Below are positions 16,086 to 29,945 of a stretch of 36,371 nt of DNA, piece after piece (position 1 is the first letter of the stretch; every line of letters begins with the position of its first letter). The translations under genes and the position numbers were made by a program. Source of the stretch: Caldifarciminota bacterium (GTDB taxonomy: Bacteria > Hydrothermota > Tepidihabitantia > Tepidihabitantales > Tepidihabitantaceae); assembly GCA_020352555.1 (NCBI GenBank), contig CP070680.1, positions 3,129,193 through 3,165,563 of the forward strand. Reading direction: 5' to 3'. The notes below the pieces were generated by a model. It had not been told where the DNA came from. It saw nothing but the letters and a program-made list of their open reading frames with translations, and made no database searches.

Positions 16086-17276
16086 TCAGCCGGAAGACTT
16101 GCCGGCTTCGACAGCAGCAGGTTTTCTCTGTGCCCGGTCGGCCGGGAAGAGCCCACGGCGCTCGGCCTCTGCGCACATCCAGTTGGGGATAATGAGTTGC
16201 CCGCCTACTGCATAGTTGTTGGCCACACAGCCGGTCCGGCAGGTCCTTGCGAATATGCACTTTGCGCAGATGCCCGGGAAGGTATCAGCATCTCCCAGTC
16301 CCTGGCGCAGGTGGAGGATCGTCGGATTGTTCAGCCAGATTTCACGGATGCTGTCCTTGTCCAGTCGTCCGTAGACGAACTCGGGATAGGTCGAGCCGAT
16401 GCCGCACAGTGCATACTGGTTGGTGCCCAGGATGCCCAGGATCCCGCGCACGTGGCAGTCGCCGCAGTTGCCGCCGGTGCGGCGCAGGCTGCGAAGCGAG
16501 GACAGTGCCGGGGGGATGTTCAGGATGATTCTCAACGGCGCGCGGGGGCCCAGGTCATAGTCGACATAGCGCGCAAGGGCCATATGCTCATCGAAGTCCA
16601 GGGCCTCGCCGTGCTCGTGCATTTCGGTCCCGCGGCCGGTCTTGGTCACAGGGTTGAGTTTGAGGGATGCAGCGCCGTGCTTGGCGGCTACCTCGGCGAC
16701 CGCCTCGACCTGGCCGCGGTTCCCGCGGTGCACACTCATGATGACTTGACTGTTCTTGAAGCCCGCGTCCTTCAGGAACAACAGCCCGCGCAGGGTTGCT
16801 TCGAATGCGCCGGCTACGCAGCGAAACGTGTCATGGGTCCGGGCGTCGGCTCCGTCCAGGCTGACAGAAACGAATGTGACATTGGTCTTGTCCTTGAGTT
16901 GCCGGGCGGCCTCGGCTGTCAGAAGCGTACCGTTCGTTTCCATGTTCATGCTCAGCCCTTCGGCGGTCAGCAAGTCCACGACCTCCGCGAAACGGGGATG
17001 GAGCATCGGCTCGCCGCCGGTGAGCTTGGCTGCGCGGAGGCCGAGGGTCTTGGCTTCGCGCACGGCCTGACCCAGGGCGTCGATATCGACGAAATGGCCC
17101 GGGTCCGGCTTACCCTTGGTGAACTGCGGTTCGATCCAGCAGTGGCGGCAGCGCATGTTGCAGCTGTCGGACAGGTAGATGTAGAACGACCCCAGCCGGG
17201 GTACGCCTTCGGGCAGGTCCGGAGTCGAACTCTTCTCCGGCGCGACCACCCCATCGGCCGGGTCACACAGCGGCAT
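16086..17276 (-). CDS. Radical SAM/SPASM peptide-modifying enzyme (ScmF-like)
   Basis: 396 residues. The radical SAM motif C-N-M-R-C-R-H-C binds a [4Fe-4S] cluster through Cys39, Cys43 and Cys46. It is followed by L-T-G-G-E-P-M, the M-E-T-N-G-T-L strand and S-V-S-L-D-G-A. A cysteine-rich C-terminal SPASM region (N-C-G-D-C, Y-A-L-C-G-I-G, I-C-A-K-C, C-R-T-G-C, W-M-C) would hold auxiliary clusters. The phrases Y-L-S-D-S-C-N-M-R-C-R-H-C-W-I and I-L-G-I-L-G-T-N-Q-Y-A-L-C-G-I-G recall TIGRFAMs ScmF of the SynChlorMet cassette (from memory). It probably modifies a PqqD-bound precursor peptide, such as those at 25.4-29.9 kb. Its ATG lies 14 bases inside the upstream radical SAM gene, so they are coupled. 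It is the last gene of the run. Confidence 0.85.
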   Translation of the reverse strand: MPLCDPADGVVAPEKSSTPDLPEGVPRLGSFYIYLSDSCNMRCRHCWIEPQFTKGKPDPGHFVDIDALGQAVREAKTLGLRAAKLTGGEPMLHPRFAEVVDLLTAEGLSMNMETNGTLLTAEAARQLKDKTNVTFVSVSLDGADARTHDTFRCVAGAFEATLRGLLFLKDAGFKNSQVIMSVHRGNRGQVEAVAEVAAKHGAASLKLNPVTKTGRGTEMHEHGEALDFDEHMALARYVDYDLGPRAPLRIILNIPPALSSLRSLRRTGGNCGDCHVRGILGILGTNQYALCGIGSTYPEFVYGRLDKDSIREIWLNNPTILHLRQGLGDADTFPGICAKCIFARTCRTGCVANNYAVGGQLIIPNWMCAEAERRGLFPADRAQRKPAAVEAGKSSG

Positions 17277-18411
17277 CGCCCGGTTCCTCCCCTTTGAATA
17301 TCCGATAGCAGACCAACGGGTCGCGTGCGTTCAGAAGTTCGTACTTGGCCATCACCGAACCCGGGCATCCGCCTGAGCAGAACCCGGCATAGGTGCAATC
17401 ATGGCACGTGGGAAGCGAGGTGAGGGGTATCTTGCGCCGGTAGCGCACCGCATTGATGGCCGGGCTGGAACGCCACGCCTCGGCCAGCGAATGGAGCCCG
17501 ATCACGCCCATGGTCAAGGTCGGCAGCAGGTCGCAGGGCACCATGGTCCCGTCGTGCAACACCGCCATCTTGGTGAGGCAGCCGCCACAGGAGTTGAGCA
17601 TTCCCCTTCCCGGCAGGCCATTCTTGCCCTGCGCAAGCGACTCCTCGATCTTGGCGAAGTGCCGGGCCATGGCAAGCGGGCCGGCCTGGGCGTTTATCCT
17701 GCCTTCGTACTGCTCGTTCAGCTCGGTAAGGATGTCCATCGCGCGTAGGCGTTCGGCCGGGGTGAGCACCACGCTCTCGCCGTAGCAGCGCGCCGAACCC
17801 ATCTGCTCGACCTCGTTGGTGCCGAAGCCATCGAGACCGACATCTTCGATCAACAGTCGGGCGATGTTCGGGAGGTCATCGAGGTTGGTCCGGTTCACGG
17901 TAACGCGCACTGTTACCGGCAGTCCGGCCTGCTTGAGCATCCGCAGTCCGGAGAGGGCCCGGTCGAAGCTCTTCGGGGGCCTGCTCTGGTCATGGACCTC
18001 GGCACGCGACCCGTCAATCGAGACCTGGACGTAGTTCAGTCGTAGGCGGCGCTTGCCTTCATCGAATGCTTCCACCGTGTCTTGACTGACAAGCGTGCCG
18101 TTGGTCAGAATGGCGTAGCGCATCCGGTTGGCGATGATGCCGTCAATCAGCTCGAACAGGTCTTCTCGCAGGAAGGCCTCCCCGCCGGAAAGCGTCACCC
18201 GCTGCGCCCCAAGCCCGCCCAGTTCATCGAACAGGGCGAGCCAGCGTTCGGTCGGGAGGTCGCTGCGGCCTGTCATCTCGTCGGCGTAGAAGCAGTAGCG
18301 GCACTTGAGGTTGCAGCGTCCGGTAACGCAGAGACTCAGTTCCCGCGGAGCACGAGACAGCCCGGTAGGCGGCACTGTCAGGTCAGGGACGGTCAGTGCT
18401 TCAGTGCTCAT
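17263..18411 (-). CDS. Radical SAM/SPASM peptide-modifying enzyme (ScmE-like)
   Basis: 382 residues from ATG 18411; a TTG four codons upstream (18423) is an alternative, and neither has a strong ribosome-binding site. The cluster motif is C-N-L-K-C-R-Y-C (Cys33, Cys37, Cys40), followed by T-L-S-G-G-E-A-F and I-L-T-N-G-T-L. The SPASM region contains N-S-C-G-G-C, P-C-D-L-L-P, C-H-D-C-T-Y-A-G-F-C-S-G-G-C-P and a late C-Y-R-I-F. Its layout after two PqqD genes, and its opening R-E-L-S-L-C-V-T-G-R-C-N, resemble ScmE of the SynChlorMet cassette (from memory). It overlaps the upstream PqqD gene by 11 bases and the downstream radical SAM gene by 14. The four genes therefore form one tightly coupled unit. 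Confidence 0.87.
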   Translation of the reverse strand: MSTEALTVPDLTVPPTGLSRAPRELSLCVTGRCNLKCRYCFYADEMTGRSDLPTERWLALFDELGGLGAQRVTLSGGEAFLREDLFELIDGIIANRMRYAILTNGTLVSQDTVEAFDEGKRRLRLNYVQVSIDGSRAEVHDQSRPPKSFDRALSGLRMLKQAGLPVTVRVTVNRTNLDDLPNIARLLIEDVGLDGFGTNEVEQMGSARCYGESVVLTPAERLRAMDILTELNEQYEGRINAQAGPLAMARHFAKIEESLAQGKNGLPGRGMLNSCGGCLTKMAVLHDGTMVPCDLLPTLTMGVIGLHSLAEAWRSSPAINAVRYRRKIPLTSLPTCHDCTYAGFCSGGCPGSVMAKYELLNARDPLVCYRIFKGEEPGDAAV

Positions 18412-18685
18412 TCGGTGCTTCAATGACGAAGTCAGGCACCACTGACTGGATGAACTGCTCCGCGTCCTTCCTTGCCTGTTCGCTCGTCAGGCCCGGATTG
18501 GCGGCTGCCAGGTGACCCGCGATTTCCTCGATAGTCCGGGGAGAGGTCAGCAGCGTCCAGATCGTCAGGCCCGAGGGATTGAGCAGGACCGACTCGTCGG
18601 TATCCGGGTTGTAGAGCATTGCTCCGTCTTCACCCTCGTCAACGCAGGAAACAACATCGTTCGCTCGATAGGTCTTGCCACTCAT
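18401..18685 (-). CDS. PqqD-like peptide-binding protein, second copy
   Basis: 94 residues. It has the PqqD/RRE fold pattern: L-Y-N-P-D-T-D-E-S-V-L-L-N-P-S-G-L-T-I-W-T-L-L in the strand-helix part, I-E-E-I-A-G-H-L in the middle, and a terminal helix with A-E-Q-F-I-Q-S-V-V-P-D-F-V-I. Such proteins bind the leader of a RiPP precursor and present it to a radical SAM enzyme. The ATG overlaps the stop of the other PqqD gene as ATGA, and a GGGGGTG ribosome-binding site precedes it. It differs clearly from its neighbour, so the two probably serve different enzymes or substrates. Confidence 0.85.
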   Translation of the reverse strand: MSGKTYRANDVVSCVDEGEDGAMLYNPDTDESVLLNPSGLTIWTLLTSPRTIEEIAGHLAAANPGLTSEQARKDAEQFIQSVVPDFVIEAPNEH

Positions 18686-18981
18686 CAGGGCACCCCCTTT
18701 AGCGGAATTTCTTGACCGATGAACCCTTCCTCGGCCAGCTTGGCCAGCAGTTCAAGAACGTCTTCGTCCACGGAATCCGGCGCGTCCGGGAATCGGCTGC
18801 GTATCCCTGCGACAATCTCGTCGGTCGTGCGCCTTCCGTCGATCAGCTTCCAGACCATCGCGCCCGTCCTGTTCACGGCCATTGCGCCGGCTGTATCCGG
18901 GTTGACCAGTAGTGTCCATCCGTCATTTCCTTCTTCCTGCACTGCTGCAGGGTTCGGTATTGGTCTGTCGGGAACAGACAT
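18685..18981 (-). CDS. PqqD-like peptide-binding protein, first copy
   Basis: 98 residues. Core segments are L-L-V-N-P-D-T-A-G-A-M-A-V-N-R-T-G, M-V-W-K-L-I-D-G-R-R-T-T-D-E-I-V, and a C-terminal helix V-L-E-L-L-A-K-L-A-E-E-G-F-I. All are typical of PqqD-family RiPP recognition elements and close to ScmD as I remember it. It is the first gene of the PqqD-PqqD-rSAM-rSAM unit. It has no Shine-Dalgarno sequence; its ATG stands five bases after a consensus TATAAT box, so the transcript is probably leaderless. It ends in an ATGA overlap with the second PqqD gene. Confidence 0.87.
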   Translation of the reverse strand: MSVPDRPIPNPAAVQEEGNDGWTLLVNPDTAGAMAVNRTGAMVWKLIDGRRTTDEIVAGIRSRFPDAPDSVDEDVLELLAKLAEEGFIGQEIPLKGVP

Positions 18982-18986
18982 CGCAG

Positions 18987-19015
18987 ATTATATCGAAATC
19001 TAGCAGTTTTGGCAA
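18987..19015 (-). promoter_or_regulatory. Consensus promoter for the PqqD/radical SAM unit, leaderless geometry
   Basis: On the minus strand TTGCCA (19015-19010), exactly 17 bases, then a perfect TATAAT (18992-18987). Five bases follow before the ATG at 18981, so transcription would begin at the start codon. This separates the modification enzymes from the upstream glycosyltransferase transcript. Confidence 0.7.
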
Positions 19016-19119
19016 GCAACTCCGGGTCGTGCCTTGTGCCCTCTGCCGGTCTCCTGATTCCGCCCAACTCACGCCCTGTGAGTGACTTGAACGCGTCATC
19101 TTCGTGCCCCGCATGGCCA

Positions 19120-20514
19120 CTACCCGTTCCGACTCTCTTCGGCAAAGCTTGTCGGATAGCCCTGGAAGTGCTTCGGGTAGTCGTAGCTGAGAACCGGCCC
19201 GAGATTGGGGTACTCCCCCGGGTCAAGGTCGGCCATTCCTTTGAGTTCTGCCCACAGATCTTCGAACCGGGCGACAACGACCTTCATCGAGAACTCGTCT
19301 CTGATCCTCTGCCGTGCGCGCTCACCCATGGTGCGCCTGAGGTCGGCGTTGCCGACAAGGTCGAGGGCTTTCGAGACCAGTTGCCTGACGTCGATCTTCA
19401 GGTCCCGGCTTGACTGGTGAATCAGAGTGTGGTCGTAGGGGTGGCGGAATTGCGCGAGCACGTCGGTTGGTCTCTGTCGCGCCCGCCACTCGACCGGTAT
19501 CCTGAAACCGTGCACCCCGTCCGCCACAATGTCGCGATATCCGTCCCAATCGGTGCAGAGCACGGGCAATCCTGCTGCCATCGCTTCCACCAGTGTCAGC
19601 CCGAGTGATTCTTGCAGGCTGTCGCTCAGGGATACGAAGATGTCCGAGGCGGAGTAGACTGTTGCCTTCTGTTCGTCGGGAAAATCGGTGATCAGCCTGA
19701 CCTTGCCGGACAGTCCCAGTCTCGCCGCTAGATTCAGCACCTGTGTCGACTCACCCTGACTGTCTGCACCTGCGACCACAAGTACCAGCTCGGCCTCAGA
19801 TGCTCTGGTGAGCTGAGCGAAGAACCGCAGGAGGCGGTCGTAGTTCATCTTGGTCAGCCACGATATTCTGCCCAAGGATAGCAGTATCACGGCATGCGGT
19901 GACAGTTCCAGCGCTGTTCTTGCACCGGTCTTGTCCACCGGTCTGAACTCCTCGGTATCGAGCCCGTACGGGATGATGTCCACCCTTCCCCGATAGCGCA
20001 GTTTGCCTTGAGTGCAGGATTCGATCTCCGACATGTAGGCGGTGATGACTTCGGCCGCTGCCCGGGAAGGGGCCACAATGGAGTCGTACGGTCTGCACCC
20101 CTGGTCCAGCAGGCACAGATCGAGGAACTCGCGCGCGTGAGCGATGGTGGCGATAGTATAAGCCCGTCTCGTCACGGGGACCGGCGCATCGCCCAGGAGG
20201 GTTCGGAACACGATCTCCTGGGCAGGCCGGATGGTTTCGAAGTGTAGGATGTCATAGCCGGGAGGCTCGGTCCCTGCCAAATCCTGCAACGGGACCAGCT
20301 CGAGCTTCCCGCTTTCTTGACAGGTGCGCGTGAAGGGATCGAATGACCGGTTCTGGAACGCCGGGTCCGTGTAGTAGTTGTGGTACGCATCAAACGTGCC
20401 GTATCTGAGCAGTCCCCTAGGCCACGCTTCCATCGCGACGTACGCGCCGAGGTATGGCTTCGGGGCGAACAGGTACTTGAAGCCTTCGAGGGTGCAGTAG
20501 AGGTGACGGCTCAT
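19120..20514 (-). CDS. Glycosyltransferase family 4-like protein
   Basis: 464 residues from ATG 20514; TTG 20526 is an in-frame alternative. The C-terminal half has the GT-B pattern: S-L-G-R-I-S-W-L-T-K-M-N-Y near residue 218, A-S-D-I-F-V-S-L-S, and the E-x7-E motif E-S-L-G-L-T-L-V-E followed by A-M-A-A-G-L-P-V-L-C-T-D-W-D-G-Y. I-I-P-Y-G-L-D lies just before the nucleotide-sugar domain. This is a retaining GT4-type enzyme using an NDP-sugar. In this setting it might glycosylate the peptide product or an associated envelope molecule, but nothing in the sequence names the acceptor. It lies between the ABC exporter and the PqqD genes on the same strand. Confidence 0.85.
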   Translation of the reverse strand: MSRHLYCTLEGFKYLFAPKPYLGAYVAMEAWPRGLLRYGTFDAYHNYYTDPAFQNRSFDPFTRTCQESGKLELVPLQDLAGTEPPGYDILHFETIRPAQEIVFRTLLGDAPVPVTRRAYTIATIAHAREFLDLCLLDQGCRPYDSIVAPSRAAAEVITAYMSEIESCTQGKLRYRGRVDIIPYGLDTEEFRPVDKTGARTALELSPHAVILLSLGRISWLTKMNYDRLLRFFAQLTRASEAELVLVVAGADSQGESTQVLNLAARLGLSGKVRLITDFPDEQKATVYSASDIFVSLSDSLQESLGLTLVEAMAAGLPVLCTDWDGYRDIVADGVHGFRIPVEWRARQRPTDVLAQFRHPYDHTLIHQSSRDLKIDVRQLVSKALDLVGNADLRRTMGERARQRIRDEFSMKVVVARFEDLWAELKGMADLDPGEYPNLGPVLSYDYPKHFQGYPTSFAEESRNG

Positions 20515-20618
20515 CTCACTGCACAACGGCAGCCGCGTAGACTCCGGTCAAGGTGCCTGTCCGGTCGGGGACGCGGCTGCAAGGGGACACACTCCGGCAG
20601 AAGCCTGGGGCCAGGAAC

Positions 20619-22445
20619 TCAGCTTCTCTGATACGGAGCGGCTTGGGCCAGATAGAGGCGGGCATAGTGGCCGTTTCGGTCAAGCAGGTCCCGGTGCGTT
20701 CCGTGTTCCCTAACCCGGCCCTTGTCAAGCACATAGATGTAGTCGGCGATCTGGACCGTTGAGAACCGGTGGCTGATGAGGAGCGCGCTGCGGCCCCGGA
20801 TTGCCCGGCGGAACCGCTTGAAAAGCTCCGCTTCGGCCAACGGGTCGAGTGAACTGGTGGGTTCGTCAAGCACCACCAGCTGCGAATCGCGCAGGAACGC
20901 CCGGGCCAGCGCCACCTTCTGCCATTCGCCAATGCTCAGCTCATGACCCTTATCGAACCAGCGGCCCAGCTGCGTGTCGTAGCCATCGGGCAGGCGGCGA
21001 ATCGCCGGGTCTGCACCGGAGCGCTGAGCCGCTTCGACAATCCTCTCCCGATCCGGCTCGGACCGCGCGTCGCCCAGCCAGATGTTCTCCCAGGCCGGCA
21101 GATAGTACTGCGCGTAGTCCTGCAGGATGACGCTGATTCCCTGCCGCCACTTGACCGGGTCCAGTTGGCGAATGTCGATGCCGTCGGCGGTGACCCTGCC
21201 GTCGTCCGGGTCGTAGAGTCGGCACAGCAGTTTAACGAGTGTGGTCTTGCCCGAACCGTTCTCACCGACCAGGGCTACCACCTGGCCGGGTGCGATGGTC
21301 AGGCGAATCGCCTCCAGCACTCTTCTTGGCGAATCTCCCGGGTATGCGAAGCCGATGTCGTGGAACGCAATGCCCCGGGCGATCCGCGCCGGGCACGCGA
21401 GCGGCTTTGCCGGTGCGGTAACCCTGGGCTTCAGGTCGAGGAACTTGTAGAGGTTGGACAGGAAGAGGTTGTCCTCATAGAGCCCGGCGAACCCCTTGAG
21501 TACGGCGCCCACCGAGCTGACGGCAAGCTGGAAAGCCGAGTAGTACATCACGAGGCTGCCGATGGTGATGGTTCCCCGGTACGTCTGATATGCGATATAG
21601 GCAAGGGTCCCGAAGACGGCAAGCGAGGCCCCTGACTGGGCCAGCACTCCGAATAGGATGCGCCGCCTGGTGAGCGCCAGCCTTCCCTTGCGCAGCTGCC
21701 GGCGCAGGACACGGAACCGGTCCCGAAACAGGGACCCGAGATCGAAAAGCCGTACTTCCTTGGCGAAAAACGAATTCGTCAATATCCAGTGGTAGTACCA
21801 CGCCCGACGCTCCTTCTGTGTCTGTTCCTGTTCGAAGCTGTACATCCGGCGCGAGTACTTCAGCCGCACCCACGCTCCCGGCACGGCGACGAAGAGGAGC
21901 ACCGAAGCCACCAAAGGGTTGAAGGCGAACAGCAGACCCGCGACACCGGCCAGCGACACTCCGCTCTGGCCGATCTGGACCAGCCGGTTGACAATGCTTA
22001 TCGGCCTAGACATGGCATTGCCTTGGGCGCGGTGAAGCGTGTCGTGGTAGCGGGAGTCCTCGTAGTACTCCAGGTCGACCTCGACCGACTGGCTGTGGAG
22101 CACATCGGTGACTCTGTCGGTCAGCACCAGGGACTGCGCCTGGCCGGCCAGTTCGGCCAGAGAGCGCGCGAGTGTCGTGAGCAAGGCAACCGCAGCGGCC
22201 AGGATCACCCAGAAGAGCACCGGCAGGAAAGAGGCAGCTCCGTCCTGTGCCGCAAGGCCGGCCTGCAAAGAGTCGATCAGACGTTTCAGAAGGTACAGCC
22301 CGGCAAGGGGAAGCAGACCCTGGGCCACGACCAGAAACAGGTTCACCGTGGCCCAGCCCGGGGCGCAGGTCCAGACTAAGCGGATCGCACGACCGAGGTG
22401 CAGTCCTCTGTGGACCGCTTCCGAGACCTTCGGTCTACCGGGCAC
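20619..22445 (-). CDS. ABC exporter, fused membrane and ATPase domains
   Basis: 608 residues from GTG 22445, with no clear ribosome-binding site. The N-terminal 340 residues contain about six hydrophobic helices. The ATPase domain follows with Walker A G-E-N-G-S-G-K-T-T at 394-402, a Q-loop (L-Q-D-Y-A-Q-Y-Y), the signature L-S-I-G-E-W-Q-K near residue 503, Walker B V-V-L-D-E-P-T near 524 and the switch histidine in S-H-R-F-S-T-V. The variant signature ending E-W-Q-K is frequent in exporters of peptide-like products. There is no N-terminal C39 peptidase, so leader removal must come from elsewhere, most simply from the S26 domains encoded upstream. It follows the nucleotidyltransferase gene after 54 bases. 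Confidence 0.9.
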   Translation of the reverse strand: MPGRPKVSEAVHRGLHLGRAIRLVWTCAPGWATVNLFLVVAQGLLPLAGLYLLKRLIDSLQAGLAAQDGAASFLPVLFWVILAAAVALLTTLARSLAELAGQAQSLVLTDRVTDVLHSQSVEVDLEYYEDSRYHDTLHRAQGNAMSRPISIVNRLVQIGQSGVSLAGVAGLLFAFNPLVASVLLFVAVPGAWVRLKYSRRMYSFEQEQTQKERRAWYYHWILTNSFFAKEVRLFDLGSLFRDRFRVLRRQLRKGRLALTRRRILFGVLAQSGASLAVFGTLAYIAYQTYRGTITIGSLVMYYSAFQLAVSSVGAVLKGFAGLYEDNLFLSNLYKFLDLKPRVTAPAKPLACPARIARGIAFHDIGFAYPGDSPRRVLEAIRLTIAPGQVVALVGENGSGKTTLVKLLCRLYDPDDGRVTADGIDIRQLDPVKWRQGISVILQDYAQYYLPAWENIWLGDARSEPDRERIVEAAQRSGADPAIRRLPDGYDTQLGRWFDKGHELSIGEWQKVALARAFLRDSQLVVLDEPTSSLDPLAEAELFKRFRRAIRGRSALLISHRFSTVQIADYIYVLDKGRVREHGTHRDLLDRNGHYARLYLAQAAPYQRS

Positions 22446-22499: not shown

Positions 22500-23711
22500 T
22501 CAGGGCCTTGCCGGTCTCAGCCATTTGACAAGCGCGGATATGCCCCCGCGTTCGCGACTACGCACCAGAGCCAGGCTTTGCTTCGCGATACGGGACCCGA
22601 AAGAACGGCCGGCGTCTCTGAGTCGCAGTGCATAGTACGGATAGAGGTGGCGGGATTCGCGGGACGCCGGATACCTCTTGGCCATCTCGTCTCGGGAGAG
22701 GAAGATCCGCTCGCGGGCCTGCCTGAGCTCGTCACCAAAGGGCGCCGCTTCCCGCACGCTGGTGCCGGTGAGAACCGCCTCCTTAGCAGCATCGAATAGG
22801 CGCTGGTCGATCCCCCCTGGGACCAGCCGCTCTAGTATGCTATTGGGCACTTCCGTACCCAGCATACCGACGGCGAGGTGCAAGGTCAAACCCACGTATT
22901 TCGGCGCATGCCACTGGCGGGCGCGGTTCGCGACTTGGGACCAGTCTATTTCACTGCGGAAGCGGCGGATGGTCTCGGAGATGTCGCAGACCGCTTTCGG
23001 TATCCCGAGACCGTGTTGACAGCCGAAATGAACGCACAGATGCAGCAGGAAGTCTTCAGGGGACAGCGTGAGAACATCGACACCGGCCACACTCGACGGC
23101 CGCGCGCGGTTCCAGAGACCGGCGGTGTCAGCCCTGACCGGCCCGGATGGCGTGGCAATCGTCCAGTGAATCTCAACGATCAGGTTACTGTCGGCCAACG
23201 GGGGAATGTGTTTGCTGCGGCGAGTCTCGACCTCCTCACCTTCTTGAGGAGCAAATCCCATGTCGAGCAGGATCAGTCGGGTCCTTGTCAGCTGAGCTCT
23301 CGGGACCATGAGGTCGAAATCGCACATCGGCCTGAGTGCAATGTCGCCGTAGACAGACTCTGCCAGAAACGCTCCTTTCAGGGCGATCACCGGTATGCCA
23401 GAGTTGCGCAGGCGTCGAAGCACGGGCCTGAGCCTGTGATAGCCGCTCGCGTTGGTGTGGGCGCTGCGGAAATAAGCCAGGCGCAGCTGCTCCCAGGCAT
23501 CGGCCGGGACCCGGGCGCGCGCGTCGCACTCCTTCAGGCGCTTGAACAGCAGCGGGGCGAGACTCGCCCTGGCTGCCAGGTCGACGACTTCATGCCAATC
23601 GTCGGCAGTGCTCTGCTGGACCTTTTGCGACTGAAGGGAATCGGCCCGGGCTGACAGGCAACAGAGGAGCAGGTCGACCGGCCCGGAGTCCGCGAATCCG
23701 TTGGCGTTCAT
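22500..23711 (-). CDS. PF14907-type nucleotidyltransferase family protein
   Basis: 403 residues from ATG 23711, which overlaps the preceding stop codon as ATGA; the longer frame to 24053 runs inside the kinase/peptidase gene. The family signature I-P-V-I-A-L-K-G-A-F-L-A, then Y-G-D-I-A-L-R-P-M-C-D-F-D-L-M-V, lies near residues 97-125. It carries the two aspartates of a polymerase-beta-like site. L-H-L-C-V-H-F appears later. PF14907 proteins are repeatedly found beside PqqD and HPr-kinase-like proteins in RiPP-type loci, and their reaction is generally unknown. Translational coupling to the kinase/peptidase fusion suggests the two act together. AMPylation or UMPylation of a peptide or protein is a possible role, by inference only. 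Confidence 0.82.
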   Translation of the reverse strand: MNANGFADSGPVDLLLCCLSARADSLQSQKVQQSTADDWHEVVDLAARASLAPLLFKRLKECDARARVPADAWEQLRLAYFRSAHTNASGYHRLRPVLRRLRNSGIPVIALKGAFLAESVYGDIALRPMCDFDLMVPRAQLTRTRLILLDMGFAPQEGEEVETRRSKHIPPLADSNLIVEIHWTIATPSGPVRADTAGLWNRARPSSVAGVDVLTLSPEDFLLHLCVHFGCQHGLGIPKAVCDISETIRRFRSEIDWSQVANRARQWHAPKYVGLTLHLAVGMLGTEVPNSILERLVPGGIDQRLFDAAKEAVLTGTSVREAAPFGDELRQARERIFLSRDEMAKRYPASRESRHLYPYYALRLRDAGRSFGSRIAKQSLALVRSRERGGISALVKWLRPARP

Positions 23712-25267
23712 TCCCGCACCTCGCTGCTCAAGACCGGGGCAGCGGCTCGCCTCAGTGCCTGTTCGTCCACAAACAGGCGGAACGGTCGCCTGATGCGCCA
23801 CTCGTCGCAGCGGCCGACGTAGCGCCCGATCGTCTGCCTGCCCATCAGCAGCTTCAGTGACATTTGGCGGCGGGCGGCGTAGCATCTGAAACGCACCAAC
23901 CTTGGCCGGAGGTTTGAGGGGAGGAGGCGGTCGAACGGCCCGAGACCGGCCACAAAGTCGTACAGCGCGTGAGGCAGGCTGCCGACGAGTCTTCGGATGC
24001 CTCGGCCCAGAAGCGTACCGCGGCGTACCAGAAGGCTTCTCCGACCCTTCCATCCGCCGTGAACCGCCCTGCGTCTACCCTCGCGCTGCGCAGCCACAAC
24101 GCGTCCGATGATGTCGCCTTGCCGCAGAACCCACGGGTCGTCGGTCGCTATCTTGTTGTCCCCCCGGGTCCGGATTCCGTCCGGACCAACGCCGACGACA
24201 CGGTGCACTATCGTCCTGTCGGTCCCGGGTGGTTTGAAGCACACCACGTCGCCCGGCCGCACTCGCTCTGCGCTGTACGGCTTGACCTCAAGCAGGTCGG
24301 GCTCCCGTAGTGAGGGATCCATGCTCGTACCGGTGTAGACCATTCGCTGTGAATCACCGGCCATCAAGGACTCGACCGACACCGGACTCCAGTCGCGATC
24401 ATCCCGGCCAGACCCTGGCACCGCTTCGACCGGAAGCACCCGCTCGATTTCTTCCCAAAACCGGCCATCGCGGCTGAGGTTCAGCGAATAGGCTGGGACC
24501 GCCGATGCCAGAGCCCTGGCAGCGTTGACACCCCCGTTACAGTGTGCCAGGGCTGTATCTTCCTCGGTCAGTTCACGCGCCTTCAGTGCGAGGTTGACCG
24601 CAGAATCCAAAATCAGGGCAGCTGCCTGGGTCGCGTTGACCGGCTCCAGACGGTCAGCGGGTGATTGAGCAAGGAAGAACATTGCCCGAAGAGGTACCGC
24701 ATGCTCGACAGGCCAGGAACCGCCTGACCCCCGGTCCTTGAAGCGGCTCCAGGTCGGCATTGGATGAGCCCAGAAGCATCCGTTCCGGTCGCGCACCACC
24801 AGGGTCCGGTCGTCGCACAGCGAGCGCCAGGGGAAGCGAAAACGACGACTGGCCGTGCTCTTGCCGGTCTGGCTGGGCCCGGCCATGATGAAGCCGCTGC
24901 CGTGATACTCGGCCAGGGCGGAGTGGAGCAACAGGCCGCCCCCGGACAGGGCCTCACGCGTAACAACCGAATCGATTCGCTCCATCTGGGAAACCCGCGT
25001 CTCCCGGTCGGTCGGTGCGACAAGACGACACACGACCGCACCTGCGGACTCGGCTTCCGAACGGACCGACGCGTCAGGCTGGTCAGATTCTTCGCATACG
25101 GCAACCCACAATTCGCGCCCGCCCTTGCCCGGGCCCAGTCGCATCACTCTTCCCAGCTCTGCTACGATCAGGGCCGCCCGGCCGTCAACCGGGACGATGG
25201 TCCATCGCTGTCCGTCAGCGAACTCGAGTTTCAGACCATGTGGCACTTGAGATACAGCTGATGGCAT
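23708..25267 (-). CDS. HPr-kinase-like domain fused to S26-type signal peptidase, copy 1
   Basis: 519 residues from ATG 25267, without a clear ribosome-binding site. Residues 10-290 form a ScmC/HprK-like ATP-binding domain. It contains L-L-L-H-S-A-L-A-E, the P-loop G-P-S-Q-T-G-K-S-T at 130-138, then W-R-S-L-C-D-D and A-H-P-M-P-T-W-S. Residues 300-395 match the S26 signal-peptidase fold of the SipW/archaeal type. It has T-G-T-S-M-D-P-S-L with candidate catalytic Ser315, V-R-P-G-D-V-V-C-F, V-H-R-V-V-G-V with His355, and T-R-G-D-N with I-I-G-R-V-V. About 120 basic C-terminal residues are unassigned. No membrane helix is evident, which is odd for a signal peptidase. It lies between precursor 1 and the nucleotidyltransferase. 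Phosphorylation plus cleavage of the precursor is a reasonable inference. Confidence 0.82.
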   Translation of the reverse strand: MPSAVSQVPHGLKLEFADGQRWTIVPVDGRAALIVAELGRVMRLGPGKGGRELWVAVCEESDQPDASVRSEAESAGAVVCRLVAPTDRETRVSQMERIDSVVTREALSGGGLLLHSALAEYHGSGFIMAGPSQTGKSTASRRFRFPWRSLCDDRTLVVRDRNGCFWAHPMPTWSRFKDRGSGGSWPVEHAVPLRAMFFLAQSPADRLEPVNATQAAALILDSAVNLALKARELTEEDTALAHCNGGVNAARALASAVPAYSLNLSRDGRFWEEIERVLPVEAVPGSGRDDRDWSPVSVESLMAGDSQRMVYTGTSMDPSLREPDLLEVKPYSAERVRPGDVVCFKPPGTDRTIVHRVVGVGPDGIRTRGDNKIATDDPWVLRQGDIIGRVVAAQREGRRRAVHGGWKGRRSLLVRRGTLLGRGIRRLVGSLPHALYDFVAGLGPFDRLLPSNLRPRLVRFRCYAARRQMSLKLLMGRQTIGRYVGRCDEWRIRRPFRLFVDEQALRRAAAPVLSSEVRE

Positions 25268-25390: not shown

Positions 25391-25612
25391 CTAGGTACCG
25401 ATGCCAGTGCCGGCGTTGCAGGCCCCGGATCCCGGACTGCCTCCAGGAATGCAGCCAGTGGCATCCGGATTGCTGCCGTCTTGGCAAATACAGGGTTCGC
25501 CGAAGGACCCGACACCGCAGTATCCCCTGGCCATCACGGCCTGGCCGAGGCGTATTGCGCGCGGGGCTTCGTACCTTGCACGGGTTGTGCTCAGACGTAC
25601 TGTGTCCGCCAT
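25391..25612 (-). CDS. RiPP precursor-like peptide 1
   Basis: 73 residues from ATG 25612; GGAGGT lies four bases upstream. The longer in-frame start lacks a ribosome-binding site. The leader ends in Y-E-A-P-R-A-I-R-L-G-Q-A-V-M-A-R-G (residues 14-30), nearly identical to precursor 2. It is followed by a small-residue core with five cysteines (32, 41, 43, 54, 65) in C-x8-C-x-C spacing, many Gly/Ser/Pro and the terminus G-T-G-I-G-T. Y-x-x-P leaders of this kind are bound by PqqD-like proteins. Short size, leader conservation and a variable Cys-rich core, in a locus with radical SAM enzymes, make it a likely modified peptide. Downstream after 123 bases comes kinase/peptidase copy 1. Confidence 0.8.
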   Translation of the reverse strand: MADTVRLSTTRARYEAPRAIRLGQAVMARGYCGVGSFGEPCICQDGSNPDATGCIPGGSPGSGACNAGTGIGT

Positions 25613-25635: not shown

Positions 25636-25728
25636 TATTATGGCTGCACAGGGAATATACTCGCCTTGGCCCCCGTGTCAAGAGATTTCTGCGTCAATTT
25701 GGACCCACCTCCAAAGGGTCAGTCAAGG
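25636..25728 (-). promoter_or_regulatory. Promoter module of precursor 1
   Basis: Minus strand, 5' to 3': upstream box CCTTGACTGACCCT (25728-25715), -35 TTGACA (25681-25676), a 16-base spacer, -10 TATATT (25659-25654), then six bases to GCAGCCATAATA (25647-25636), which would be the first bases of the transcript. The predicted leader is about 35 bases. The same four elements precede precursors 2 and 3. Confidence 0.7.
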
Positions 25729-26018: not shown

Positions 26019-26228
26019 CTAGGTGTTGGTACCTGTGTAGCAGCCCTCAGGGGAGCTGCCTGGTTGGCAGCCACAGACGTCCGGACTGCCGCCGTTGTTG
26101 CAGAGGCAAAGGTCGCCGAATGACCCGGGTCCGCAGACTCCCCTGGCCATCACGGCCTGACCAAGGCGTACTGCGCGCGGGGCTTCGTACCTTGCCTGGG
26201 ACGTTCTTGGATGCGTTGTCTCCGCCAT
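26019..26228 (-). CDS. RiPP precursor-like peptide 2
   Basis: 69 residues from ATG 26228, with the same GGAGGTATGC before the ATG as precursor 1. The leader Y-E-A-P-R-A-V-R-L-G-Q-A-V-M-A-R-G (residues 14-30) differs from precursor 1 by one residue. The core keeps C-G-x-G-S-F-G at 32-38 and C-x-C at 41-43, then diverges, with six cysteines in total (32, 41, 43, 52, 54, 63). It ends T-G-T-N-T. It is a clear paralogue of precursor 1 that has changed mainly in the C-terminal half. That is the usual behaviour of RiPP cores. It is transcribed from its own copy of the shared promoter module and has no kinase/peptidase gene directly behind it. Confidence 0.8.
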   Translation of the reverse strand: MAETTHPRTSQARYEAPRAVRLGQAVMARGVCGPGSFGDLCLCNNGGSPDVCGCQPGSSPEGCYTGTNT

Positions 26229-26256: not shown

Positions 26257-26347
26257 GTATGGCTGCATCGCAATATACACCCCTGGTCCGCCGTGTCAAG
26301 AGATTTCTCTGCTGGTTATGGGGACAAACTCGGAGGGACGGTCAAGG
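26257..26347 (-). promoter_or_regulatory. Promoter module of precursor 2
   Basis: Minus strand: upstream box CCTTGACCGTCCCT (26347-26334), -35 TTGACA (26299-26294), a 16-base spacer, -10 TATATT (26277-26272), five bases, then GCAGCCATAC (26266-26257). The upstream box begins 48 bases before the -35, against 47 at precursor 1. Confidence 0.7.
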
Positions 26348-26404
26348 GTCAGAACCAGAGAACAATACACAAGCCAGCGGCGATGCTCCGTACAAGGCGC
26401 CCGA

Positions 26405-26500
26405 GCGCCAGGCCGTCCCAGGTGGCTTGAAGCGCACCTTGTCGCCGGGCGAGCACCGCCCGGTTGAGGTTGGCCGGTATCAGCTGGAGCCTGGCGGCCC
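26405..26500 (-). pseudogene. Remnant of a third kinase/S26-peptidase gene
   Basis: One minus frame reads S-P-G-D-K-V-R-F-K-P-P-G-T, matching R-P-G-D-V-V-C-F-K-P-P-G-T of the S26 domain in copy 1. Just upstream, a different frame reads L-Q-L-I-P-A-N-L-N-R-A-V where the intact copy has L-E-V-K-P-Y-S-A-E-R-V. The match is therefore broken by a frameshift and flanked by stops. The nucleotide string GGTGGCTTGAAGCGCACC (26420-26437) also resembles the antisense of copy 1. The rest of 26350-26680 shows no clear gene and may be further decayed sequence from the same copy. Confidence 0.55.
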
Positions 26501-26689
26501 GGGTCCGTATAGCAGCAGCAGCCCGGTGCGCTTGCACAGGCTCTTGTGTGTTCCCGTTCAGATAGCTTCGCGTCGCCCGCGACCACACCCCACCCGAAAG
26601 CTGCGGCCCGCAAGCAGGAGGACCCGTTGCCAGGGGGATAGCTGCAGCAGTGAAATGTGTCCTGTGTGCGCTCCCTGGCCGTATTGAGG

Positions 26690-26715
26690 CCGGGGGAGCC
26701 GCAAGGCTCCCCCGG
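26690..26715 (-). terminator. Strong GC hairpin downstream of the lipoprotein gene
   Basis: A perfect 11-bp stem CCGGGGGAGCC/GGCTCCCCCGG with a four-base GCAA loop, starting 35 bases after the lipoprotein stop codon. There is no T-run on either side, so it is a terminator-like or mRNA-stabilising hairpin rather than a textbook intrinsic terminator. Confidence 0.55.
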
Positions 26716-26749
26716 TAGTTGTGCGCCGTCAGGCGCTTGACCAATACGT

Positions 26750-27790
26750 CTATGGGTCTACCTCGATGAAGGCGAACTGCAGTTTCCCTTCGGACTCTTT
26801 CGGCTCCATGATCACGGCCAGCAGTTCGCCCTCTTCGGCCCAGAAGCCTGTCCCGTAGGTGATTGCGTCGTCCGCTATCTGGCCGGCCAGGCCGGCAGGC
26901 TTGCTTGCGTAGTCGCCGAGCAGATACCAGATCGCTCGCTGGAACTCAACCCAGGTCGCATCGGTGTACTTGGACATGTTGTTCAGCAGCCAGTTCACGC
27001 GGTCCCACCGGCGCGGGCCGTACAAGCCGTTCTTGGCACGGTCAGGCAGGGTCGAGCCCTGGCTCGAGTGCAGTTTTACATCGTACCAGATGCCGGTGTC
27101 AATGCTGACGCCCCACTCTGCGCACCAGCCGCGCCAGTAGGCGCTGTCCCAGACGTTGAAGCCAGTGCCGATGCCCTTCAACTCGACGCGGAAATAGCAT
27201 TCCTCGGCTTCCCACGGCCAGTGAAGCAGCATCTCGACCCAGTATGTCGGGAGCTTGACGTCTTTGCCTTCTCTGCGCCAGTACTTGAAACACCCTTTCC
27301 ACTCGCCGCCCCAGCCGGTCTCTTCCTGGTTGGTTTCGGTGTTCCTGACTACGGCGTGGAAGGCCAGAGCGACATAGTATTCGCCTTTGTCCTCGTCGTA
27401 TCCCCAGACTATGCTGTCAAGCGGGATCCTATAGGTGAACTCGGTCACCGCAGGGTCGTGGTCCGTCTGCAGAGGGAAATTGCCCGGAACCAGATGGCCC
27501 TTCTTGTTCCTGGGCAGGTTGGCACAGTCATCGGCCCAGGCCAGCGCACTCTCGGTCATCTCCCACGGGTCGTATATGAGGACGTCGACGACGAGGTCGT
27601 CTCCGTTCTCCCACACCAGCAGCTCGCCGACAGTATCGTTCTGGCCAGCGATGATGTCGAACTCCTGGGGACCAATGCCCGACGTGCGGACCAGCGCATC
27701 CTGGTCTGCCCACATGTCCTCGCAGCCTGTCATGAACAGGCCGGCGGCCGCGATCAGGGCAAGGGGCAGTATCCACAGCCTCTTCTTCAT
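26750..27790 (-). CDS. Lipoprotein with a possible thioester (TED-like) domain
   Basis: 346 residues from ATG 27790, preceded by AAGGAGG. The lipoprotein signal is K-K-R-L-W-I-L-P-L-A-L-I-A-A-A-G-L-F-M-T-G-C, with the lipid-anchor cysteine at residue 23. The middle is rich in Trp, Asp and Glu. In the C-terminal half, W-C-A-E-W-G-V-S-I-D-T-G is followed by Y-D-V-K-L-H-S-S, V-N-W-L-L-N-N and F-Q-R-A-I-W-Y-L-L. These resemble bacterial thioester domains (PF08341/TQXA type), where a Cys and the Gln of a Q-x-A-I-W motif form an internal thioester; both residues are present. If so, it could attach covalently to amines on a surface. The frame continues upstream to 27889, but the ribosome-binding site favours 27790. 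Why it sits inside the peptide locus is unknown. Confidence 0.6.
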   Translation of the reverse strand: MKKRLWILPLALIAAAGLFMTGCEDMWADQDALVRTSGIGPQEFDIIAGQNDTVGELLVWENGDDLVVDVLIYDPWEMTESALAWADDCANLPRNKKGHLVPGNFPLQTDHDPAVTEFTYRIPLDSIVWGYDEDKGEYYVALAFHAVVRNTETNQEETGWGGEWKGCFKYWRREGKDVKLPTYWVEMLLHWPWEAEECYFRVELKGIGTGFNVWDSAYWRGWCAEWGVSIDTGIWYDVKLHSSQGSTLPDRAKNGLYGPRRWDRVNWLLNNMSKYTDATWVEFQRAIWYLLGDYASKPAGLAGQIADDAITYGTGFWAEEGELLAVIMEPKESEGKLQFAFIEVDP

Positions 27791-28034
27791 CTTTTCCTCC
27801 TTCTCACAGCGGGTCGCGGGGATTGGGCGCCGCACGCACGTGTCCGGTGCCTCGGTCGTCACCGCTGTGTGCTTTGCTGTCTCTGCCATGCTGCGGGCGC
27901 GCAGGCGAACAGATGGGCCTGCGCCCGCGGCCTAAAGGGTTTTCCAGTGAGCGAAAGCTACCCCAATGTTGCTGTCGGTCAGGGGTACCGGCTGGGGCAT
28001 CGCAATGCGCTACTCGAGGAGTAACCCATGCCTC
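27791..28034 (-). other. Long 5' leader of the lipoprotein transcript
   Basis: About 240 bases lie between the predicted transcription start and ATG 27790. They include an 8-bp hairpin (GCGCAGGC 27899-27906 with GCCTGCGC 27917-27924). A decayed start, ATGGCAGAGACA, at 27889-27878 matches the beginning of precursor 3 and resembles precursor 2, and it is in frame with the lipoprotein. I cannot assign a known riboswitch class. Confidence 0.4.
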
Positions 28035-28069
28035 GCTGGCATTATGCCAGCCTGATGGAGTCCTGTCAA
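28035..28069 (-). promoter_or_regulatory. Promoter with a palindromic operator over the -10 box
   Basis: Minus strand TTGACA (28069-28064), exactly 17 bases, then CATAAT (28046-28041). The -10 box is the centre of a perfect 17-base palindrome GCTGGCAT-A-ATGCCAGC (28051-28035 on the minus strand), a likely repressor site. It drives the lipoprotein gene. Confidence 0.65.
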
Positions 28070-28113
28070 GCTCGGACGTCAGCCGACCCTCTCGCCGCAT
28101 GGTCACGAGCCGG

Positions 28114-29715
28114 TCATGCTTCGAGCCTCATGGCCGGAAGAACGGCCTGCATCAGCGTGTGCTCGTCCACGAACAGGTGGAAAGGCCGCCGAATGTCCAG
28201 CCTCTTGCGGCGGCTGTCGTAGCATGCGATTGTGCGTCTGCCCATCAGGAGTTTCAGGAACACCCGATAGCTGGTGCCAGTGAACCCGTGTGACCAGAAC
28301 CGGTATGGAACGGCGAAGCGAACCAGCCTTGGCCTGAGGCTCGCGGGGAGGAGGCGGCCGAGCGGACCGAGTCCGGCAAGTACGTCATACAGCGCGTTGG
28401 GCAGGCTTCCGACGAGTCTTCGTGAACCGCGGCCCAGACGGGCGCAGCGAAGTGCCAGAGCACCTCTTCTTCCGCCAGGGACCACCCTGCGTTTACTCTC
28501 CCGCTGAGCAGTCACAACTCGTCCGATGATGTCACCTTTTGGCAGCACCCAAGGGTCGTCCGTTTGCCTGTTGTCCCCTCGCGTGCGGATTCCTTCAGGG
28601 CCAACGTCGATGACACGGTGTGCGACCTTCGTGTCGTTCTCGAGTGACCTGAAGCACACCACGTCGCCCGGCCTCACTCGCCCCGCACCGTACGGCCTGA
28701 CCTCAAGCAGGTCTGGCTCCTGGAGAGTGGGGCTCATGCTTGTGCCGGTGTAGACCATTCGCTCCGAGTCGCGCGCCATCAAAGACTCGGCTGACACCGG
28801 ACCCGGAAGACGACTGCAGTCGTCAGGCTTCGGCAAATCACCGACTGGGAGTACTTTCGCGATCTCTTCCCAGAACCGGCCGCCAGCACTGATTCTGAGC
28901 GAGTACGCCGGGACCGCAGATGCCAGGGCCTTGGCAGCAACTACTCCTTCACTACAGAGCGGTACGAAGGCAGGGTCTGCCTCAGCCAGCTTGAGCGCAA
29001 TCCGCTGAAGGTCCCAGGCAGAATGCACTATCAGGGCGGTTGCCTGGGTTGCGTTAAGGGGCTCCAGTCGGTCGGATGAAGACTGCATCAGGAAGAACAT
29101 CGCCCGAAGGGGTACGGCTTGCTCCACGGCCCACGAGCCGCCCGGGCCTCCATTTCTGAACCGGCTCCAGGTCGGCCATGGATGAGCCCGAAAGCGGCCC
29201 CCTTGAACCCGCACCACCAGGGTTCGGTCATCACTCAGTGAACGCCAGGGGGAGGGGAGACGGCGACAGGCCGTGCTCTTGCCTGTCTCGCTGGGTGCTG
29301 CCAGGATGAAGCCGCTTCCTTGATACTCGGCCAAGGCAGCGTGGAGCAGAAGGCCGCCACCGACCAGGGCCTCACGGGTGATTGCGGTGTCGATTCGCTG
29401 CAACTGACGGACCTGCGACTCCCGGTCGGTCGGCGCGTCAAGCCGACAAACAACCGTGCTCGGGGATTCGGTGTTCTGTCGGTCAAACTCGTCAGGCTCG
29501 TCGTACACCGCAGCCCAAAGCTCCTTGCCAGCCGTGCCCTGGCCCAGGCGCATGACTTTGCCCAGCTCGGCTACGATCGAGGCCGCCCGGTCATCGACCG
29601 GGCGGACGACCCATCGCTGCCCGTCAGCGAGCTCGAGTTTCAGACCATTGTCTGTCACGCTTGTCGGGAGGATGCCGACCTTGCGGCTGAAGCAGCGTTT
29701 CTGGGTCCGACGCAA
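28114..29715 (-). CDS. HPr-kinase-like domain fused to S26-type signal peptidase, copy 2
   Basis: 533 residues from TTG 29715, supported by GGAG four bases upstream. It is a paralogue of the 23708-25267 protein along its whole length. It has L-K-L-E-L-A-D-G-Q-R-W at the N-terminus, the P-loop A-P-S-E-T-G-K-S-T at 140-148, W-R-S-L-S-D-D, A-H-P-W-P-T-W-S, then the S26 part. There T-G-T-S-M-S-P-T-L gives candidate Ser326, A-H-R-V-I-D-V gives His366, and T-R-G-D-N and I-I-G-R-V-V follow. The C-terminal tail ends in a conserved R-R-P-F-H-L-F-V-D-E. Both catalytic regions appear intact, so this is not a dead copy. It follows precursor 3 by 89 bases, repeating the precursor-then-kinase/peptidase order of copy 1. 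Confidence 0.82.
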   Translation of the reverse strand: MRRTQKRCFSRKVGILPTSVTDNGLKLELADGQRWVVRPVDDRAASIVAELGKVMRLGQGTAGKELWAAVYDEPDEFDRQNTESPSTVVCRLDAPTDRESQVRQLQRIDTAITREALVGGGLLLHAALAEYQGSGFILAAPSETGKSTACRRLPSPWRSLSDDRTLVVRVQGGRFRAHPWPTWSRFRNGGPGGSWAVEQAVPLRAMFFLMQSSSDRLEPLNATQATALIVHSAWDLQRIALKLAEADPAFVPLCSEGVVAAKALASAVPAYSLRISAGGRFWEEIAKVLPVGDLPKPDDCSRLPGPVSAESLMARDSERMVYTGTSMSPTLQEPDLLEVRPYGAGRVRPGDVVCFRSLENDTKVAHRVIDVGPEGIRTRGDNRQTDDPWVLPKGDIIGRVVTAQRESKRRVVPGGRRGALALRCARLGRGSRRLVGSLPNALYDVLAGLGPLGRLLPASLRPRLVRFAVPYRFWSHGFTGTSYRVFLKLLMGRRTIACYDSRRKRLDIRRPFHLFVDEHTLMQAVLPAMRLEA

Positions 29716-29804
29716 GTCACTCCGCTATGCCTGGAGGAACTCACTAGCCTGGACTGATTGTTTCCTACTGCGTGCGCCGCAGCAGGGGTCGACTGGTAGC
29801 TCTG

Positions 29805-29945
29805 CTAGTAGATAGGGCTATTGCCGGTCTCCCAGCACACGCCCATCAGCTCGGGCTGAGTGTTGCGGGCTGCGTCGCCCTGAGCTGTCTCTGCATCACG
29901 CAGGCGTACTGCCTTCGGGGGTTCGTATTTCGGTGTCTCTGCCAT
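29805..29945 (-). CDS. RiPP precursor-like peptide 3
   Basis: 46 residues from ATG 29945, with GGAGG six bases upstream. M-A-E-T-P-K-Y-E-P-P-K-A-V-R-L-R-D-A-E-T-A-Q-G aligns with the leaders of precursors 1 and 2 (Y-E-x-P-x-A-x-R-L, then A-x-G). The core is quite different: D-A-A-R-N-T-Q-P-E-L-M-G-V-C-W-E-T-G-N-S-P-I-Y, with one cysteine. Leader, start context and promoter are shared, so the gene is homologous, but its product would be chemically distinct or the core may have shrunk. It directly precedes kinase/peptidase copy 2. Confidence 0.7.
   Translation of the reverse strand: MAETPKYEPPKAVRLRDAETAQGDAARNTQPELMGVCWETGNSPIY

Follow-up and report, generated by a model that had tools for sequence, protein, structure and literature searches.

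A WOR-3 locus is probably a divergent branch of a predicted, uncharacterised pathway, present in bacteria and archaea, for peptides with a common tandem Cys-x-x-Gly repeat

The closest named relatives of the locus described here are the SynChlorMet genes, which already carry names in protein-family databases. Our literature search found no paper that uses the name SynChlorMet, no paper on the system when combinations of PqqD, kinase and radical SAM were sought, and no characterised product or enzyme of the family. PQQ and mycofactocin are cofactors made from precursors, HprK phosphorylates a carrier protein, and the clusters of phosphorylated or glycosylated lasso peptides contain a PqqD-like leader-binding protein and an ABC exporter, as does the present locus. 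Among lasso peptides, the kinase PadeK acts on its precursor, and pseudomycoidin is phosphorylated by PsmK and then hexosylated by PsmN (PMC9266682). Y/WxxP is the recognition motif of PqqD-like RREs (PMC12710340).

Here we describe a WOR-3 locus lying in a stretch of 36,371 nucleotides, referred to below as the window. The locus is real and is almost certainly a ribosomal peptide (RiPP) pathway. Taken as a whole it is probably best explained as a divergent SynChlorMet-like RiPP pathway, divergent because its kinase and peptidase are fused, its three precursors have their own promoters and its precursor-kinase units are duplicated. The products are most likely small Cys-rich peptides that are cross-linked, phosphorylated, trimmed and exported. 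A preliminary description of this DNA had presented the locus as a candidate new system; the claim of novelty is not supported, since the broader type has its names in NCBIfam (ScmA, C, D, E and F).

Gene content of the locus and its recurrence

Every listed cluster gene was confirmed as an open reading frame, and all lie on the minus strand between positions 16086 and 29951, in agreement with the single orientation noted earlier. Domain calls identified two radical SAM proteins, two PqqD proteins, a GT4 glycosyltransferase, an ABC protein, a PF14907 protein and two kinase-S26 fusions. Of two ATGA couplings originally described, that between the second fusion gene (KP2) and the PF14907 gene is a true ATGA overlap; the junction between PqqD1 and PqqD2 instead reads TGATG, a one-base overlap. 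ScmD, ScmE and ScmF are adjacent and ScmC lies nearby, the arrangement of a SynChlorMet cassette, and short precursors with a conserved leader and a variable core stand beside a leader-binding protein and a maturase, as expected of a RiPP locus in general. The gene set, the conserved active sites, the precursor family and the conserved neighbourhood are all read directly from sequence.

Through ScmE we found 45 loci in which the gene set recurs; they represent at least nine bacterial phyla and the archaeon Methanothrix and were compared with 33 control radical-SAM loci. PqqD is present in 45/45 of these loci (3/33 controls), ScmF in 44/45 (0/33) and a precursor in 34/45 (0/33). The original identification of a RiPP locus is supported. 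Many of the 45 loci are cut by contig ends, and it is with this in mind that the counts for the kinase (33/45 against 0/33), the peptidase (30/45 against 0/33), the PF14907 nucleotidyltransferase (20/45 against 1/33) and the ABC exporter (19/45 against 3/33) should be read; the last two were not found in some of the loci that looked complete. In other loci the core partners comprise an HprK-type kinase resembling ScmC, an S26 peptidase of the ER/archaeal type, a PF14907 nucleotidyltransferase and an ABC exporter. Relatives G002, G005, G008, G013, G016 and G017 carry the gene set, ScmE not being found in the assembly of G017, which is in 490 pieces. Desulfomonile (locus L108) has a canonical cassette, in which the ScmC, D, E and F cut-offs are all passed and the precursor has CxxG repeats. 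The neighbourhood survey that the preliminary description had called for thus shows the pieces occurring together in related genomes and far beyond.

Two genes that had been counted as parts of the system fared differently. The GT4 glycosyltransferase (19120..20526, minus strand; domain match) has no counterpart in the other related loci examined; it was rejected as a core component and is kept as a local accessory. The lipoprotein (26750..27889, minus strand; likely start near 27790) sits within the locus and had been called thioester-like, a description for which we found neither a Pfam thioester-domain match nor a PDB sequence match. The same genome has three more strong matches, grouped at another site, homologues occur in genomes that lack these kinases, and none of the 45 surveyed ScmE loci contains it. 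Its membership in the system is therefore unsupported: by sequence it is a dispersed lineage-specific family, probably outside the system. A local link with the cluster may nevertheless exist in WOR-3, because a copy in G013 lies 3 kb from that genome's cluster (L034).

Precursor peptides and their promoters

The three precursor genes are on the minus strand. A2 (26019..26228; 69 aa) has six Cys and A3 (25391..25612; 73 aa) has five, in CxxG units, and both were detected in the window by a regular expression combining the YxxP leader with CxxG units. A1 (29805..29951; 48 aa), with the leader PKYEPPKAVRLRDAE and the single core unit CWETGNSPIY, was found by homology only (profile E = 7.8e-11); having just one unit, it may be decayed. 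Each gene has its own predicted promoter on the same strand. That of A1 (30001..30037) is of sigma70 type, with TTGACA and a -10 element, and is a copy of repeat D8; those of A2 (26272..26308) and A3 (25654..25690) both read TTGACA-16-TATATT.

Comparison of 46 precursors defined the leader as YxxP and the core as tandem C-x2/3-G-x2-[A/P] units. Gly occurs at C+3/+4 in 216/220 units and is the nearly invariant core residue besides Cys, Cys-Cys spacing is 9-12 in 155 of 181 intervals, and the cores are otherwise variable and multiplied. The next gene found downstream of the precursor was a kinase, a fusion or a peptidase in 33/51 cases, and relatives G002, G008 and G017 have satellite precursor-kinase copies. 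The regular expression gave 41 matches in 655 kb of relatives' loci versus 0 in 451 kb of control loci, and 2 matches in 20 Markov-shuffled windows. That the small reading frames arose by chance in GC-rich DNA is scarcely credible: A1, short and with one unit, might be so explained, but the same leader and repeat turn up across numerous bacterial phyla and in one archaeon, the control loci yielded none, and the genes have their own promoters, so the comparison already contradicts this reading.

The window precursors are unmatched by the ScmA precursor model (TIGR04252, cut-off 35). The precursor of a relative's locus (L079) matches it at 21.2 bits (E = 2.5e-4) and is the sole match that we retained, because the hits of this model in relatives' genomes, at E up to 1, are paralleled in 7/14 unrelated control genomes. 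In verrucomicrobial loci with the same enzymes, the precursor search mostly found no precursor.

Maturation enzymes and proposed pathway

The ScmE-like (17263..18423; likely ATG at 18411) and ScmF-like (16086..17276) radical SAM/SPASM enzymes, both on the minus strand, have ScmE (TIGR04250, 360.4 bits) and ScmF (TIGR04251, 338.2 bits) as their best family matches, each under the curated cut-off of 400; most ScmE proteins of the wider family also score below it, at 320-394 bits. PqqD1 (18685..18981) and PqqD2 (18401..18685), also on the minus strand, are ScmD-like leader-binding proteins (TIGR04248, 60.2 and 33.1 bits; cut-off 100). The likeness to SynChlorMet noted in the preliminary description was right in kind, the best matches being ScmC, D, E and F; in the model searches it proposed, ScmC passed (see below) and ScmE and ScmF did not. 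Pfam matched a SPASM domain in one of the radical SAM proteins, SPASM-type Cys sets are present in both, and the CxxxCxxC and CX2CX5CX3C motifs are kept across loci. In eight loci, mostly of Verrucomicrobiota and Kiritimatiellota, ScmE begins with a PqqD domain, and a separate PqqD-like domain stands beside ScmF. Because of these natural fusions, each PqqD could be assigned to a radical SAM partner: PqqD1 most likely serves ScmE and PqqD2 ScmF.

Secondary matches of the pair include AhbD, PqqE and mycofactocin maturases, as would be expected if the peptides were raw material for a cofactor, and Cys-rich repeats could equally bind metal in a structural peptide. We consider it quite improbable that the peptides serve in either way in place of being secreted in modified form, since the cores are variable and multiplied and have satellite precursor-kinase copies, needless for a conserved cofactor, and since the neighbourhood includes a leader-type peptidase and an ABC exporter. 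As to the chemistry, none of the family matches identifies the reaction, and the near-invariant Gly is not open to epimerisation, although it might form a turn; instead of forming thioethers, the pair might epimerise residues or make C-C links, the Cys ending as disulfides or becoming lipidated or glycosylated. This reading is unlikely, if still a serious contender: a single Cys in each repeat, at a constant distance from Gly and Ala/Pro, fits a pattern of one cross-link per unit, and the sactipeptide maturase StsB is among the secondary matches. We therefore favour a thioether or other cross-link derived from Cys.

KP1 (28114..29715) and KP2 (23708..25267), on the minus strand and 62% identical, each join a ScmC/HprK-like kinase to an S26 signal-peptidase-like domain. 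Both kinase halves pass the ScmC cut-off (TIGR04249, 170 and 173 bits; cut-off 125), and the peptidase of KP1 scores 45.9 bits against TIGR02228 (cut-off 51.85). A short remnant of a third copy (26414..26476, minus strand) matches the peptidase region at 62% of 21 aa (tblastn E = 6e-6). Across loci the P-loop Lys is kept in 41/41 kinases, and the catalytic Ser and His of the peptidase in 42/44 and 41/44. The profile matches SEC11 (4e-13) and, weakly, HprK (0.004); the predicted model, of moderate confidence (pLDDT 71), resembles PEPCK/HprK and signal peptidase. The fusion, earlier taken as a distinguishing trait, is shared by other WOR-3 genomes, by Methanothrix and by deltaproteobacteria. A single fusion event was considered and set aside; as the grouping of the WOR-3 with the Methanothrix and deltaproteobacterial fusion clades has only 82/47 support, one or two origins are possible. 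A plasmid collection search gave no match to the kinase-peptidase.

HprK takes a carrier protein as its substrate, and the HprK-like half might, in the same way, regulate expression or the exporter without modifying the peptide. The weakness of the HprK match leaves some room for such a role, which we nonetheless regard as improbable: the kinase co-duplicates with precursors (A1-KP1, A3-KP2; satellites in L039 and L041) and is fused to a peptidase, as expected of a peptide-processing enzyme, and the lasso kinase PadeK has its precursor peptide as a substrate (PMC9266682).

The PF14907 nucleotidyltransferase (22500..23711, minus strand; Pfam 1.3e-58), coupled to KP2, keeps its DxD motif in 27/27 cases across loci. 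Its profile had no match in a PDB sequence search, and its nearest folds were ANT(2'')-Ia, MenT1, LnuA and FKRP, all above E = 0.001. The MsbA-like ABC exporter (20619..22445, minus strand; domain match) has no peptidase-domain match at its N terminus.

From these components we infer all reactions and their order, the cross-link chemistry, and the product and its role. The three precursors would be made each from its own promoter and held by the YxxP leader on the two PqqD proteins. ScmE and ScmF would act on the repeated core units, most likely giving each unit a single thioether or other cross-link derived from Cys. The ScmC-like kinase would phosphorylate a core Ser or Thr, whose phosphate would receive a sugar or a nucleotide from the PF14907 enzyme. 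Removal of the leader, near its small-x-Gly end and before the first Cys, would fall to the S26 half of the kinase-peptidase, and the exporter would secrete the product. More broadly, we put forward, tentatively and as somewhat short of probable, a RiPP class that is uncharacterised but widespread, spanning many bacterial phyla as well as methanogenic archaea. In it, two radical SAM enzymes, each paired with a PqqD of its own, would make one cross-link in every C-x2/3-G-x2-[A/P] unit. The kinase and the PF14907 enzyme would next phosphorylate that core and phospho-glycosylate or nucleotidylate it, and the peptide would be cut by a signal peptidase of ER type that has been relocated to the cytoplasm and joined to the kinase.

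Significance and comparison with known systems

What the comparison provides is a definition of the precursor, a YxxP leader with a tandem C-x2/3-G-x2-[A/P] core, which makes the pathway testable, together with the proposed pairing of the PqqD and radical SAM proteins. The data also suggest that the kinase and the PF14907 enzyme, both familiar from lasso peptides, have a further peptide scaffold, unrelated to the lasso one, as their substrate. The sharing of one peptide system between bacteria and methanogens should interest specialists in RiPPs and in microbial ecology.

With SynChlorMet the locus shares the E- and F-type radical SAM/SPASM enzymes, the ScmD-type PqqD and the ScmC-type kinase. 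It differs in that its ScmD, E and F fall under the equivalog cut-offs and its precursors lack a TIGR04252 match, and in having a fused kinase and peptidase, three precursors, a GT4 and two PqqD proteins, where one was found in the SynChlorMet locus L108. As in the lasso peptides paeninodin and pseudomycoidin, a kinase and a nucleotidyltransferase for the precursor peptide occur in one cluster (PMC9266682); unlike them, the window cluster has a radical SAM pair and CxxG cores, and its ten proteins gave no match to a lasso cyclase (asparagine-synthetase-like) or B2 protease. The peptidase has the Ser-His catalytic pair and GDN motif of the ER/archaeal-type signal peptidases (SEC11, S26B) but is fused to a soluble-looking kinase domain and has no N-terminal membrane anchor. 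Sactipeptides and ranthipeptides (for example streptosactin, made by StsB, and ruminococcin C) likewise depend on SPASM radical SAM enzymes that modify Cys-containing cores while a PqqD-like domain holds the leader, whereas the present locus has two different SPASM enzymes, separate PqqD proteins, a kinase, an S26 peptidase and a nucleotidyltransferase, and the thioethers that characterise those peptides, from Cys-S to C-alpha in sactipeptides, are here putative.

Gene organization and precursor peptides

The locus is a minus-strand gene run from 29951 down to 16086, in the order A1 (first of three precursor-peptide ORFs, A1 to A3), KP1 (a kinase fused to an S26-type peptidase), lipoprotein, A2, A3, KP2 (a second such fusion, 62% identical to KP1), PF14907 nucleotidyltransferase, ABC exporter, GT4, two PqqD-like proteins (PqqD1 and PqqD2) and two radical SAM-SPASM enzymes, here called ScmE and ScmF. 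Of a third peptidase copy, only 21 residues remain, at 26414-26476. Of the two ATGA couplings in the preliminary description, that between KP2 and the nucleotidyltransferase stands, whereas PqqD1 and PqqD2 meet at TGATG with one base in common; PqqD2 overlaps ScmE, and ScmE overlaps ScmF. The GT4 protein (19120-20526) exceeds the Pfam cut-off of GT4-conflict (PF20706; 28 bits vs 26). The lipoprotein (26750-27889), whose family matched no known domain, has tandem paralogues in its own genome (G000:C1:1276407-1279352) and homologues in other WOR-3 genomes.

All three precursors share the leader YE[A/P]P[R/K]A[V/I]RL; Y/WxxP-type leaders are bound by PqqD-like proteins in several RiPP classes (PMC12710340). 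A WOR-3 precursor profile had exactly three matches in the own genome. Among the relatives, G002 had seven matches, G008 five, G017 four, G013 three, and G005 and G016 one apiece; it found none in G015, where the kinase-peptidase is likewise missing. With the remaining loci read by eye and by pattern, 46 precursors were collected in total. Their core is a chain of units, usually 3 to 6. Gly occupies C+3 or C+4 in 216/220 of them, position G+3 is Ala or Pro in 151/213, and the Cys-to-Cys step is 9 to 12 residues in 155/181 cases; the peptides were partly chosen for Cys and small residues, so that composition is not independent, while Gly position and spacing played no part in the first picks. 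A stricter pattern was present at 34 of 45 family loci and none of 33 controls (451 kb), with 4 matches in 1.97 Mb of shuffled sequence. The ScmA (SynChlorMet precursor) model aligned over both leader and core of the L079 precursor, under its cut-off (E = 2.5e-4), which suggests that the family precursors are most simply of the ScmA type. Five verrucomicrobial and Kiritimatiellota loci (L094, L097, L098, L099 and L102) have the core enzymes, but a CxxG precursor was not found in them, and their enzymes may act on another peptide.

A TTGACA or TTGACG box with a near-consensus -10 element lies 40 to 71 bases upstream of 13 of the 15 WOR-3 precursors checked, and on this basis each precursor seems to have strong transcription of its own. 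In 33/51 cases, the first gene found downstream of a precursor encodes a kinase, fusion or peptidase. Precursor-kinase units in the window are A1-KP1 and A3-KP2; in G002, G008 and G017 there are such units remote from the main enzymes. On the simplest reading, kinase and peptidase would be matched to particular precursors, with ScmE and ScmF common to all.

Distribution and evolution of the gene set

A close ScmE occurs in 6 of the 147 genomes of the phylum, the own genome included. Kinase-peptidase genes were found in six genomes of the window's taxonomic family, from two other genera, and are absent from almost all remaining members of the phylum; relatives in public databases carry the label candidate division WOR-3 (Caldifarciminota). 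An ScmE scan yielded 45 family loci (L067-L111) in Chloroflexota, KSB1, Thermodesulfobacteriota, Myxococcota, Verrucomicrobiota, Kiritimatiellota, Acidobacteriota, Planctomycetota, Fermentibacterota, CSSED10-310 and the archaeon Methanothrix, and, in addition, two more distant Omnitrophota loci.

That the pieces occur together in related genomes was borne out by this survey. The 45 loci contain PqqD (45), ScmF (44), kinase (33), peptidase (30), nucleotidyltransferase (20) and ABC genes (19), counts that are lower bounds because contig ends cut many loci, against 3, 0, 0, 0, 1 and 3 at 33 control loci picked via unrelated radical SAM genes. Neither GT4 nor the lipoprotein was found at any of the 45. 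We conclude that the window's locus is real and coherent, and almost certainly a RiPP locus.

In the ScmE tree the window groups with WOR-3 relatives (support 99/97 with L067, 100/95 for six); the next to join, weakly (82/47), are Methanothrix and deltaproteobacteria. As all fused kinase-peptidases found sit in these weakly joined groups, the fusion would have one or two origins.

Three further loci were noted. In Methanothrix L074 (1-3119) a second cluster on the opposite strand has two radical SAM genes along with genes for PqqD-like and peptidase-like proteins. In the own genome, the gene of an HprK-like kinase that scores 37 bits with ScmC overlaps a radical SAM gene at G000:C1:229115-232256 (L049 7116-10257), possibly another RiPP system, and a 609-aa radical SAM protein lies close to a small S26-type peptidase at G000:C1:47400-50600 (L048 7408-10540).

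Predicted maturation steps

Eight loci have an N-terminal PqqD domain on ScmE and a separate PqqD-like domain adjoining ScmF, and PqqD1 would thus partner ScmE, and PqqD2 ScmF. The radical SAM and SPASM cysteines are kept in both enzymes, save the last SPASM Cys of ScmF (49/91 aligned rows, a rough figure since the rows mix both enzymes). Because each core unit has a single Cys at a fixed distance from Gly and Ala/Pro, one link per unit may be formed.

The P-loop and acidic pair of the kinase are conserved across loci, even in the kinases beyond the fused clade, most of which matched our profile weakly (18 to 65 bits). Against PDB, the kinase-peptidase profile matched SEC11 (4e-13) and HprK (0.004), and the predicted structure (pLDDT 71) resembles PEPCK/HprK and signal peptidases. 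The nearest folds to the PF14907 model (pLDDT 90) are ANT(2'')-Ia, MenT1, LnuA and FKRP. Peptidase catalytic residues are retained across loci (Ser 42/44, His 41/44). A Gly within 5 residues of the first Cys, present in 41/46 precursors and preceded two residues ahead by Ala or Gly in 22, is a plausible signal-peptidase-like cleavage site. A profile search gave no peptidase-domain match at the exporter N terminus, and a separate peptidase would therefore be required.

Relation to SynChlorMet and pseudomycoidin

The suggested likeness to SynChlorMet proved real. A SynChlorMet model was the top NCBIfam match for every core enzyme, and both KP kinase halves passed the ScmC cut-off (173 and 170 bits vs 125), but ScmE (360) and ScmF (338) fell below theirs of 400; the PqqDs reached 60 and 33 bits with ScmD (cut-off 100). 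By the curated cut-offs, the locus is a divergent relative rather than a SynChlorMet equivalog. The wider family is mostly under the ScmE cut-off too: of nine complete ScmE-type proteins from beyond the window's clade, just two passed, L100 (408) and L108 (614), and the still more distant L112 and L113 gave no ScmE-model match at the strict limit applied. Desulfomonile L108, which also scores 209 with ScmC, 115 with ScmD and 677 with ScmF, is a canonical SynChlorMet locus. There a single fused 736-aa ORF (1097-3304) encodes ScmE and ScmF, which supports joint action of the two enzymes.

Judged on sequence, the window's locus is a divergent variant, with putative reactions and product, of a kind that is itself predicted and experimentally uncharacterised. 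The nucleotidyltransferase PsmN of pseudomycoidin is a PF14907 protein, and its pairing with a kinase would be a combination present in the window too. In pseudomycoidin, the kinase PsmK phosphorylates a Ser, to which PsmN then adds a hexose (PMC9266682).
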